A stretch of DNA of 64,000 bases. Source: Halobacteriales archaeon QS_4_69_225. GTDB lineage: Archaea; Halobacteriota; Halobacteria; Halobacteriales; Haloarculaceae. The position numbers and the translations under genes were made by a program. Where the stretch lies: positions 1 through 64,000 of the forward strand of contig PXRL01000015.1 in the NCBI GenBank assembly GCA_003020965.1, read 5' to 3'. The notes beneath the pieces are model-generated. The model was not told the origin of the DNA, did no database searches, and was given only the letters and a program-made list of their open reading frames with translations. The first letter of the stretch is position 1, and each line of letters starts with the position of its first letter. Positions 578 through 31,147 of the stretch are shown here, piece after piece.

Positions 578-3815
<3,238 letters not shown>

Positions 3816-9235: not shown

Positions 9236-9739
9236 CCCACTTTTTACTCGTCGGGTTTCCTCGCTCGCTTCGCTCGCTGCGGGAACCTCTCCTCGCAAAA
9301 ACTTGGGGAAAAACTACCCGGCGGCTCACTCCGTTCGCCGCCGGTGAAACCGCGACTCGCTGCGCTCGTCGCGGTATGCTAGCGGGTGTTGACATCGTAC
9401 GGCCGGAGCTGGTGGTTGGTAACTCCGGCTAGCATCGGCGCGAGCGTAGCGAGCGCCGTTCGCCGGCGGCGACCGGAGGGAGCCGCCGGTAGCGCGCGAC
9501 GACTAACGCCGAGCGAAGCGAGGCGGCTGGAGGAGCGGGTTGCGGGCTCCGCCCGCAACCGAATGGACGTGGTCGTTCGAAAGGCGCTTCGCGCCTTTCG
9601 TGATGCCGAAAGACGCCGTGGGCGTCTTTCGGGCCACGGCGGAGCCGCCACGCAGCGCGCATATTTTCCCCAAGTTTTTGCCGCGAAGGCGTGTCGCGCG
9701 CCGGAAGGCGCGCGACCGCCGGAGCGTGCAAAAAGTGGG
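9236..9739. repeat. Nested inverted-repeat block between radA and pheA
   Basis: The whole 500-bp gap between convergent radA and pheA is built of palindromes. Outer arms CCCACTTTTT (9236-9245) and AAAAAGTGGG (9730-9739) lie 1-3 bases after each stop codon. Inner arms GCAAAAACTTGGGGAAAA (from 9295) and its exact complement (9664-9681) follow 49 and 48 bases inside, so each gene is followed by the same module with a different hairpin core. Between them are further hairpins: AGGCGC-TTC-GCGCCT (9588-9602 region), CCGAAAGACGCC-GTG-GGCGTCTTTCGG (9606-9632), GGTTGCGGGC-TCC-GCCCGCAACC (near 9540-9560), and GCTAGC copies around 9378 and 9430. The T-runs probably terminate both genes. No protein gene is seen. 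Confidence 0.8.
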
Positions 9740-22324: not shown

Positions 22325-22484
22325 GGGCACGCAGTTCAGTCCGGACAGAGCGTCGGAGTTCTATCCGCGTCGCCTTCGCGGTGCGGGAAGACATCCGATG
22401 GCCGTGGGTTCGAATTCCGAAAGACTCGCTCCGCTCGTCTTTCGGCGTTCGCGAACCTGCGGTTCGCTCACTCCCATCGTGCCC
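22325..22484 (+). pseudogene. Broken tRNA-Arg(TCT)-like gene with a 57-bp insert in the T-arm
   Basis: Starts GGGCACGCAGTTCAGTCCGG and follows the functional tRNA-Arg at 22572 nearly base for base through the anticodon arm and the intron (TCCGCGTCGC...GGGAAGAC), with D-stem and anticodon-stem changes that weaken pairing. After GGGTTCGAAT (ending 22415) a 57-base block (22416-22472) intervenes before CCCATCGTGCCC. The T-stem and acceptor stem are therefore split and the gene cannot make a normal tRNA. Confidence 0.88.
22416..22472 (+). repeat. 57-bp twin-hairpin insert, copy 1 (tRNA-Arg)
   Basis: Begins TCCGAAAGACTCGCTCCGCT and ends GGTTCGCTCACT. Hairpin 1 pairs CCGAAAGAC with GTCTTTCGG; hairpin 2 pairs GCGAAC with GTTCGC. 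It lies exactly at the T-loop/T-stem junction (between tRNA positions 60 and 61). Four other inserts of identical length occur in the window. Confidence 0.85.
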
Positions 22485-22537
22485 GGTCGTCGACCACCGG
22501 GAAGCCGCCGATTCGGGCGACAACTCTTCTCCGCAAC

Positions 22538-22547
22538 GTCTTTTTAG
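22538..22547 (+). promoter_or_regulatory. TATA-like box of tRNA-Arg
   Basis: TCTTTTTAGG lies 25-34 bases before the mature 5' end of the tRNA at 22572, at the usual position for an archaeal tRNA promoter. The broken copy at 22325 has no comparable box. Confidence 0.55.
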
Positions 22548-22571
22548 GCTCGGGCCGGAACGAGGTCTCAA

Positions 22572-22674
22572 GGGCACGTAGCTCAGTCCGGATAGAGCGT
22601 CGGACTTCTATCCGCGTCGCGTTTGCGTCGCGGGAAGACATCCGATGGCCGTGGGTTCGAATCCCATCGTGCCC
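22572..22674 (+). tRNA. tRNA-Arg(TCT) with intron
   Basis: Acceptor GGGCACG pairs with CGTGCCC, D-arm GCTC...GAGC, anticodon stem TCGGA/TCCGA with loop C-T-TCT-A | A, T-arm GTGGG-TTCGAAT-CCCAT. A 29-base intron (22611-22639) sits at the canonical position 37/38. Mature length is 74 bases without CCA. The gene decodes AGA (and AGG weakly). Confidence 0.93.
22611..22639 (+). other. Intron of tRNA-Arg(TCT)
   Basis: 29 bases between A37 and A38. Its ends (TCCGCG and CGCGGGA) pair with each other and with exon sequence, as needed for the bulge-helix-bulge recognised by archaeal splicing endonuclease. The same intron with compensating differences is kept in the broken copy upstream. Confidence 0.8.
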
Positions 22675-22711
22675 GTGAAGCCGCCGAGCGACAGTGAGCA
22701 GCAGCGGCACC

Positions 22712-22857
22712 GGGATTCGAGGCCCGGAAGTCACAGCCCGCACAGCGAGCGAAGCGAGCGAGCAGGACCGTCTTCCTCCGGTTCGAATTCCGAAAGATTC
22801 GCTCCGCTCGTCTTTCGGCGTTCGCGAACTCGCGGTTCGCTCACTCCCATCGTGCCC
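22712..22857 (+). pseudogene. tRNA-Arg 3'-end fragment with inverted T-arm and 57-bp insert
   Basis: Contains an inverted T-arm-like GGGATTCGAGGCC (22712-22724), a hairpin-rich spacer, GGTTCGAAT (22780-22788), a 57-base insert (22789-22845) and the tRNA-Arg 3' end CCCATCGTGCCC (22846-22857). Nothing of the tRNA upstream of the T-arm is left. The architecture equals that of the tRNA-Asp fragments at 30.4-30.9 kb. Confidence 0.82.
22789..22845 (+). repeat. 57-bp twin-hairpin insert, copy 2 (tRNA-Arg fragment)
   Basis: Nearly identical to copy 1 (TCCGAAAGATTCGCTCCGCT at the start, GGTTCGCTCACT at the end), with differences limited to hairpin arms and loops, and the same total length. Confidence 0.85.
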
Positions 22858-23049
22858 GCTGTTCTGCGAGGAGCGGACGCGGCGAGCAAACGGCGAACGG
22901 AGATGGCTTCGGACCCCCGAGACGAGCGTTGCGGGTCCCGCCATCGAGGTCGAGTCGATACCCGACCGTCCCGGAGAGGGCAGCCGGATTGCGACCGAGG
23001 TCGTTCCCGGATCGCGTGGATTGAACAACCCCGGGCGCCACGGAGTCTC

Positions 23050-30384: not shown

Positions 30385-30518
30385 CGCCCGAGGCGGGACT
30401 GAGCGGCGCCGACGGCGCCGCGAGGGTCGAAAGACGCCGGAGGCGTCTTTCGGAATTTGAACCACGGTCGTTCCCGTTCGCTCGCTCCGCTCGCTCACCT
30501 CCCACTCCCTGGTTCAAA
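30385..30518 (-). pseudogene. tRNA-Asp 3' fragment 1 with insert and inverted T-arm
   Basis: Plus-strand order: tRNA-Asp 3' end (30385-30398), 57-bp insert (30399-30455), T-arm TTTGAACC (30456-30463), hairpin core, and the opposite-strand T-arm GGTTCAAA (30511-30518). The intact gene has the first and third parts joined directly. Confidence 0.82.
30399..30455 (-). repeat. 57-bp twin-hairpin insert, copy 3 (tRNA-Asp)
   Basis: In tRNA sense: starts (T)TCCGAAAGACGCC, hairpin 1 closes with GGCGTCTTTCG, hairpin 2 pairs GCGGCGCC with GGCGCCGC, end GCTCAG. Same length and edges as the tRNA-Arg copies although the hairpin arms differ. Confidence 0.85.
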
Positions 30519-30615
30519 TCCGCGCCGAGGTTGCTTCGCTCCTCACGTCCGTTCACCGGAGCGGCGACGCCGCTCCGAGCCTTCGCTCGCGCTGTTCGCG
30601 AAGACGTCGCAGAAG

Positions 30616-30732
30616 CGCCCGAGGCGGGACCGAGCGGAGCCGAAGGCTCCGCGAGGGCCGAAAGACGCCTCTGGCGTCTTTCGGAATTTGAACCCGGACG
30701 AGACTCGCTTCGCTCGTCTCGTGTGATTCAAA
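30616..30732 (-). pseudogene. tRNA-Asp 3' fragment 2 with insert and inverted T-arm
   Basis: tRNA-Asp 3' end (30616-30629), 57-bp insert (30630-30686), TTTGAAC (30687-30693), a hairpin core (ACGAGAC with GTCTCGT) and the inverted ATTCAAA (30726-30732). Its outer flank is almost identical to that of the functional gene, so it is a recent copy. Confidence 0.82.
30630..30686 (-). repeat. 57-bp twin-hairpin insert, copy 4 (tRNA-Asp)
   Basis: Hairpin 1 pairs CCGAAAGACGCC with GGCGTCTTTCGG (loop AGA in tRNA sense); hairpin 2 pairs GCGGAGCC with GGCTCCGC (loop TTC). Confidence 0.85.
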
Positions 30733-30805
30733 TCCCTTAGTAACGATTCGTCGTGGACGCCTCACTCGTCGCTCCGCTCCTCGTTCGTGAGTCCGCGACA
30801 GAAGA

Positions 30806-30937
30806 CGCCCGAGGCGGGACTAAGCGGAGCCGGAGGCTCCGCGAAGGTCGAAAGACGCCTCCGGCGTCTTTCGGGATTTGAACCGAAGGAAGACGGTCAC
30901 TTCGCTGCGCTCAGCGCTGCGTCTTCCAAGGTTCAAA
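30806..30937 (-). pseudogene. tRNA-Asp 3' fragment 3 with insert and inverted T-arm
   Basis: tRNA-Asp 3' end (30806-30819), 57-bp insert (30820-30876), TTTGAACC (30877-30884), a core with GGAAGAC / GTCTTCC arms, and GGTTCAAA (30930-30937). The GACCGTCTTCC string next to the T-arm is shared with the tRNA-Arg fragment near 22768. Confidence 0.82.
30820..30876 (-). repeat. 57-bp twin-hairpin insert, copy 5 (tRNA-Asp)
   Basis: Hairpin 1 pairs CGAAAGACGCC with GGCGTCTTTCG; hairpin 2 pairs GCGGAGCC with GGCTCCGC (loop TCC). Compared with copy 4, stem changes are mostly matched on both sides. Confidence 0.85.
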
Positions 30938-31074
30938 TCCGCCGACGCGCTTTGCGACTCACGTGAATACCGAGCAGCACTCGCGTCTGCTCGCGCTGCT
31001 CGCCGTGTTGTTCACCGGAGCGGCGACGCCGCTCCGAGCCTTCGCTCACGCTGTTCGCGAAGACGTCGCAGAAG

Positions 31075-31147
31075 CGCCCGAGGCGGGATTTGAACCCGCG
31101 TCACGACCGTGACAGGGTCATATGATGGGCCACTACACCACCCGGGC
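31075..31147 (-). tRNA. tRNA-Asp(GTC)
   Basis: Minus-strand tRNA of 73 bases: acceptor GCCCGGG with CTCGGGC and discriminator G, anticodon loop CTGTCAC (anticodon GTC), T-arm GCGGG-TTCAAAT-CCCGC. A TATA-like GGCTTAAG lies about 25-30 bases upstream (31172-31179). No intron. It decodes GAC/GAU, the most used acidic codons of this genome. Confidence 0.95.

Follow-up and report, generated by a model that had tools for sequence, protein, structure and literature searches.

Palindromic units anchored to tRNA genes in Halobacteriales and a twin-hairpin module optionally inserted at their T-loop junction

What kind of sequence can enter tRNA-like DNA repeatedly at one position and with one length? 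The question is raised by the window—the whole stretch of 64,000 nucleotides analyzed here, from Halobacteriales archaeon QS_4_69_225—in which five inserts of exactly 57 bp lie between GGTTCRAAT and CCC. The earlier note regarded them as an element of invariant length occupying a single T-loop position in two tRNA families. For the window itself this was observed correctly, yet an invariant 57-bp element is too narrow a description: the insert, hereafter module B, is one optional module of a larger tRNA-anchored unit.

Inserts in the Window

The pattern GGTTCRAATNCCGAAAG gave five matches in the window with two mismatches allowed, versus 0.02 expected from shuffles, which confirms the five exact inserts. 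Two copies of B occurred in a tRNA-Arg(TCT)-like context and three in copies of the tRNA-Asp 3' end. The surrounding parts are designated here as follows: Y, the tRNA 3' end; T, the T-loop; T', the inverted T-loop; and A, the hairpin between T' and T.

At the Arg locus, on the plus strand, the first copy of B (22416–22472; match to the pattern and to model R1) lies inside a whole diverged copy of tRNA-Arg(TCT) situated upstream of the intact gene. The 5' part of this copy (22325–22415), for which tRNA searches of the window gave no tRNA call, ends in the T-loop TTCGAAT and is identical to the intact gene at 83 of 91 bases as far as the T-loop; the tRNA-Arg 3' end, read from the sequence, follows B (Y, 22473–22485). 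Downstream of the intact, intron-containing tRNA-Arg(TCT) (22572–22675; Rfam tRNA, 61.4 bits; ARAGORN, introns allowed), the second copy of B (22789–22845, pattern match) is located in a copy of the T-loop and 3' end: it is preceded by the inverted T-loop ATTCGAG, hairpin A, and the T-loop TTCGAAT (together 22715–22788) and followed by a Y copy (22846–22858), both by sequence reading.

The three Asp copies of B (pattern matches) form an array on the minus strand behind the intact tRNA-Asp(GTC) (31074–31147, minus strand, tRNA searches). Moving away from the gene, T'-A-T unit 1 (30876–30938, hairpin type GGAAGACG..CGTCTTCC) is followed by B (30819–30875) and Y with the sequence CCCGCCTCGGGCG (30806–30818); unit 2 (30686–30733, hairpin type ACGAGAC..GTCTCGT) by B (30629–30685) and Y (30616–30628); and unit 3 (30455–30519, hairpin type CAGGGAGTG..ACGACCGTGG) by B (30398–30454) and Y (30385–30397). 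The T'-A-T units were delimited by pattern and sequence reading, and the Y copies by sequence reading. The positions given for the Arg pair in the earlier note agree with ours; those of the Asp trio, by the same definition of the insert, were one base too high.

Every B of the window that lies downstream of its tRNA is separated from it by T', hairpin A, and a copy of T. An inverted T-loop and a further hairpin thus precede four of the five inserts, and the tRNA-Arg copy precedes the fifth (22416–22472). No B insert was found in the intact tRNA-Arg and tRNA-Asp genes; the earlier description of the inserts as splitting tRNAs is valid for the copies, which alone carry B, but not for the intact genes.

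Length, Fold, and Distribution of Module B

Beyond the window, the length of B varied from 30 to 90 bp among 61 further model matches flanked by the T-loop and CCC, a set that includes a few copies elsewhere in the window's own genome; the commonest lengths were 53 (n = 13), 57 (n = 8), and 59 bp (n = 8). The constant length is therefore a property of the window's five copies but not of the family. Model R1 was built from 16 of the 20 inserts, with L006, L011, L015, and L055 omitted for a missing CCC or a deletion. Of its 99 distinct rows, 33 did not enter the length count because the T-loop, CCC, or both were missing; 66 began at the T-loop and ended at CCC, a share favored by the presence of these flanks in the model itself.

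B folds into two hairpins, and the paired changes in their stems proved compensatory, as had been supposed. In the alignment of the 99 rows, which leans toward the structure as it was fitted to the model, both sides changed in 19 of 20 pairs, with 392 cells versus 104 in shuffles. In a MAFFT alignment of 16 inserts, this was the case in 8 of 20 pairs (35 cells versus 11.6 shuffled), and further pair types did not rise above the shuffles (13 versus 11.7; 126 of 500). The outer pair of hairpin 2 (columns 84/131) was C-G in 49 rows and G-C in 41.

The first hairpin is not constant in sequence but takes many forms among the copies. In some relatives (L231, L187, and L219), the tRNA 3' end itself serves as its 5' arm, and an inverted copy of that end, hairpin 2, and a second 3' end follow in turn. 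Hairpin 1 begins 1–2 bases from the junction. The ends of B, YCCGAAAG and GCTCAST, are not inverted repeats of each other; its right end forms a core of its own, TCAST/CCC (for example, CTCAGT/CCC; the slash marks the junction).

Matches to the B model at E ≤ 0.01, only part of which were read individually, were found in 162 of 293 genomes of the order. B as a genome-wide REP-like repeat was ruled out because 10 of the 12 matches to the hairpin-2 motif in the window's whole genome fell at four tRNA loci; the hairpin-1 motif by itself was less specific, being present at nine distinct places of this genome, six at tRNA arrays and three elsewhere. A loose B pattern retrieved 115 stretches, mostly from unrelated bacteria among the matches listed, and five haloarchaeal stretches were taken for reading. 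The exact B pattern was absent from the viral contigs searched; a viral origin of B was also considered and rejected, the sole viral match to the hairpin-2 motif, L251, having neither tRNA nor T-loop context. At L160, L161, and L223, B was seen in tRNA-Ser-like copies upstream of intact tRNA-Ser, an arrangement comparable to that of tRNA-Arg in the window. In Halorussus halobius HD8-83, by contrast, the B at L041 is situated behind tRNA-Ser.

Anatomy and tRNA Linkage of the T'-A-T Unit

Downstream of the tRNA, the unit has the order Y–trailer–T'–hairpin A–T, then Y again, with B present or absent between T and Y. T'-A-T is an imperfect DNA palindrome, the right edge of which is the junction. 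When four stem positions were tested in 77 units, 214 of 308 cells were Watson–Crick pairs, versus 100 in shuffles (highest 123); the register took in one mostly mismatched position, so that only 2 of the 77 stems were perfect. T passed straight into Y in 86 of 133 units, and a gap of 30–82 bp preceded Y in the other 47. The median distance from the T-loop to the first T' was 84.5 bases, T–Y copies were mostly about 100–300 bp apart, and most units were too short for a gene. Among 106 loci, de-duplicated by sequence only, 86 had one detected unit, 13 had two, and 7 had three.

The T'-A-T pattern, in which no tRNA is demanded, was found in 203 of 293 Halobacteriales genomes and in 74 of 87 genera; the reversed pattern, used as a control, gave zero in every listed row. 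In a sample of the phylum, 26 of 33 genomes of the order had matches versus 3 of 163 outside it, and those outside included a tRNA-Thr gene (L347) and a sequence that reads like tRNA-Leu, at which ARAGORN calls nothing (L348). In 29 of 30 loci read, those returned by the search and belonging to three families only (f17, f14, and f1), a tRNA lay 38–255 bp upstream on the same strand; at the thirtieth, L305, the tRNA was in the opposite sense. Y matched the 3' end of that tRNA at no fewer than 10 of 12 positions in 26 of the 30.

The units are not restricted to the two tRNA families named in the earlier note: the tRNAs that they follow fall into eleven amino-acid classes—Asp, Gly, Ser, Lys, Ala, Glu, Arg, Leu, Thr, Val, and Met—by ARAGORN names, which are perhaps wrong in places (L288 and L298 were called Asp and carry an Arg 3' end). 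Viral contigs gave 35 raw matches (L312–L346), and a blastn search of the Asp array against plasmid and phage records gave no match. There is thus good support for palindromic units that are anchored to tRNAs throughout the order and that may hold a twin-hairpin insertion at their T-loop junction. The possibility raised earlier, that the insert is shared through a known larger element, holds in so far as a larger unit exists, but we found no description of tRNA-anchored T'-A-T units in the open-licence literature; an earlier one is possible elsewhere.

Presence and Absence at tRNA-Asp within the Genus

Twenty genomes of the genus were inspected at tRNA-Asp; four gave no clear tRNA-Asp match, and the L267 locus was cut by a contig end. 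Units were present in 4 of 14 readable relatives (L253, L260, L261, and L263), and B was absent at L260 and L263. At L255, L256, and L259, no unit was found, yet the same downstream FtsX-like permease motif was present. The T/Y junction thus occurs with and without B, and no target duplication was seen. From this scattered distribution, both the unit and B appear to be gained and lost at the junction T/Y. At L253 (approximately 1880–3030), hairpin 1 of a B beside tRNA-Asp was split by about 1.1 kb reading like a putative transposase gene, after which the rest of B and Y followed.

Matching of T' to T and Types of Hairpin A

For T = TTCAATT, the matched pattern AATTGAA/TTCAATT was found in 21 of 146 genomes, and the mismatched one, combining TTCAATT with the commoner ATTTGAA as T', in 2 of 146. 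Among 158 detected units, 133 had a T identical to the T-loop of their tRNA, a figure biased by the detection, which demands that T' be at most one mismatch from complementary; the test giving 21 versus 2 is free of this bias. In the 25 units with T other than TTCAAAT, T' was the exact complement in 13 and had one mismatch in 12.

Similar types of hairpin A recur with various tRNAs and forms of T. Under a loose single-linkage rule, 64 of 133 units fell into the largest cluster, in which 17 tRNA species, as assigned, and five variants of T were represented. The three hairpins A of the window's Asp array are distinct, falling into clusters of 64, 11, and 5 units, and each type occurs at other tRNAs too. 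Hence no simple inheritance together with a single tRNA accounts for the hairpin cores, whereas T' and Y conform to the local tRNA.

Origin of the Arrays

The best explanation, in our view and with a probability of about 0.42, is that the arrays consist of cassettes without genes, anchored to tRNAs and moved as folded hairpins by a recombinase supplied in trans. Its starting points are the anatomy and boundaries of the units, their linkage to tRNA, the matching of T' to T, their scattered presence, and the several hairpin types behind a single tRNA. The T-loop boundary, the absence of duplication, the heterogeneity of the cassettes, and the match of T' to T agree with a site-specific recombination that acts on folded hairpins. 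The recombinase, acting in trans, would cut at the T-loop core and insert small cassettes, circular or single-stranded, recognized via their folded hairpin, in the way an integron integrase uses attC, with the tRNA T-loop in the role of attI. Each cassette would bring its own Y and so restore the tRNA, and the copies displaced downstream would drift, leaving the order tRNA T/Y–short trailer–T'–hairpin A–T/Y, repeated. B would be a second, smaller insertion at the T/Y junction. Unequal recombination between T–Y copies could also enlarge the arrays.

A recombinase mechanism is the likeliest single reading, although it is unproven and we infer the enzyme by comparison with integrons. This is an analogy, not membership in integrons, because a typical unit has no room for a gene and the analysis found no recombinase linked to the arrays, the sole genome-wide enzyme search being that for PF01797 (below); no excised form of a cassette was seen. 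Less probably, Halobacteria may possess a gene-less integron-like system, in which a host or viral recombinase would insert hairpin cassettes at the tRNA T-loop, with the tRNA as the anchoring site, folded single strands as the sites of the cassettes, and the tRNA restored at every insertion, B exploiting the same junction. If the recombinase reading is true, the tRNA genes of an archaeal order are the seat of a recombination system that has gone unnoticed, although 203 of the 293 sampled genomes bear its traces; partial tRNA copies would be accounted for, and culturable haloarchaea would offer a tractable model for the recognition of hairpin DNA.

Rather unlikely, though the strongest of the alternatives, is that the units are scars of ordinary tRNA-targeting integrative elements, multiplied by unequal recombination, with palindromes kept perfect through strand-switch copying and no present-day mobility of cassettes. 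Archaeal integrases use tRNA 3' ends and T-loops, and 17 families of archaeal tyrosine recombinases are distinguished (PMC8371274); partial tRNA copies associated with proviruses are known in haloarchaea (PMC3119063, PMC7230728). An integrative element was indeed found beside an array: an element of about 3 kb in tRNA-Gly (L365:1275-4520) encodes a tyrosine integrase (Phage_integrase, PF00589, 1.8e-14), a DUF7342 protein, and an ORF without a Pfam match, and both its flanks carry an identical T'-A-T unit. Integrative elements thus use the same loci as the arrays. L365 had been the best candidate for a gene-carrying cassette, which was rejected once it turned out to be an integrative element. 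Its duplicated sequence extends over the 42 bp between the anticodon loop and the tRNA 3' end and over a further block of 124 bp holding the array unit, and so does not demonstrate a crossover in the T-loop. At L366 and L368, the whole locus (tRNA-Gly or tRNA-Ala with its array) seems to have been duplicated in tandem, the repeats being about 1.6–1.7 kb apart, as multiplication by unequal recombination would have it. However, scars leave unexplained why 74 of 87 genera have a T'-A-T hairpin at the T-loop, why T' matches the tRNA's T, and why one array has three distinct hairpin types, and an integrase would not fit into a unit of the usual length. Were they no more than passive repeats, these palindromes matched to the T-loop would still be a large natural record of palindrome correction.

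The units may also be non-autonomous elements derived from IS200/IS605 (PATE or REP-like), placed by a Y1 HUH transposase on single-stranded hairpins after a short target, TTCRAAT or TTTCAKT, which we regard as improbable. Two near-end hairpins, the fixed left target without duplication, and the conserved right core, which keeps its pairing across hairpin 2 as either C-G (49 rows) or G-C (41 rows), agree with such an origin, as does the abundance of PATEs in Haloquadratum (PMC3119063). However, the Y1 transposase (PF01797) does not track the units: it was found in 21 of 31 genomes with six or more T'-A-T matches (not all such genomes) and in 23 of 32 without a match, both sets being hand-picked, and was absent from the window's genome (89% complete). 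Old copies could outlast their transposase. The left ends of IS608 carry a guide, for which a hairpin 1 beginning 1–2 bases from the junction leaves no room, and the linkage to tRNA is unlike that of PATEs.

Still less probable is a functional RNA, in which structured 3' trailers made with pre-tRNA would control its processing or folding, T' pairing with the tRNA's own T-loop or with its copy: the units are on the same strand as the tRNA and close behind it (median 84.5 bases), and compensatory change in B is strong, but units are absent at 10 of 14 readable tRNA-Asp loci in the genus, tRNA was the sole Rfam family to reach the gathering score in either array, and G-T pairs make up 1.3% of standard pairs in B, the rows of which are related to one another, versus 3.7% in the acceptor and T stems of 135 tRNAs, which mildly favors pairing at the DNA level and may thus be a better fit to DNA than to RNA.

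Comparison with Known Systems

An integron cassette array is anchored, has inverted and direct cores around an imperfect hairpin, and has insertion bounded at the core. The T'-A-T units resemble it in the anchored array, in the succession of inverted core, hairpin, and direct core, T' following T, and in the boundary of the insertion at the core; they differ in being gene-less, with T–Y copies mostly 100–300 bp apart, and in having a tRNA as the anchor. The rtT repeats of Escherichia coli tyrT likewise follow a tRNA in short tandem copies that each include its 3' end, and they are known from one locus in enterics, whereas our units span an archaeal order and many tRNAs; we know of no T'-A-T palindrome in the rtT repeats.

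The nearest described haloarchaeal elements that we found are the SMRs and PATEs of Haloquadratum, and each fails a tested feature. SMR-A and SMR-B of Haloquadratum walsbyi are very short, gene-less, and without target duplication, their mobilization being unexplained; they have prominent terminal inverted repeats, and SMR-A strongly prefers PATE/IS605 palindromes as a target (PMC3119063). B is likewise very short, gene-less, and without target duplication, but it has no terminal inverted repeat, folds into two hairpins, and lies mostly at the tRNA T-loop junction (T-loop and CCC in 66 of 99 R1 rows) and not in such palindromes. PATEs are IS605-related and have near-terminal palindromes, no inverted ends, no target duplication, and no gene (PMC3119063); B shares these features of ends, target, and gene content with them, but the units differ from PATEs in their tRNA linkage, in the copy of Y after the element, and in the lack of association with a Y1 transposase.

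In the att-site duplications of archaeal integrases, the tRNA 3' end is restored and the old end is displaced (PMC8371274), as in our units. The duplications described there flank integrase elements, whereas unit copies are mostly about 100–300 bp apart, with L365 as the exception.

Module B outside tRNA Genes

The view of B as a small element at one T-loop position, with a structure maintained by compensatory change, stands; its occurrence is wide (162 of 293 genomes) and, at tRNA-Asp within the genus, patchy. B was also found at a non-tRNA site with a similar core, CCTTTCAKT/CCCACCC, at four loci in three genomes, and this core resembles B's own right end. The motif CCCCTTTCAGTCCC[AG]CCC, which corresponds to this insertion site, forms close inverted pairs at L159 near 712 and at L205 near 715.

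A cluster of palindromes, CGAAAGGCGC..GCGCCTTTCGTGATGCCGAAAGACGCC..GGCGTCTTTCGG, was found at 9540–9650 of the window, with a similar one in the same genome at C9:170975. These palindromes represent a further haloarchaeal family, with no tRNA link as far as seen; hairpins related to them precede the non-tRNA sites of B in L170 and L225.
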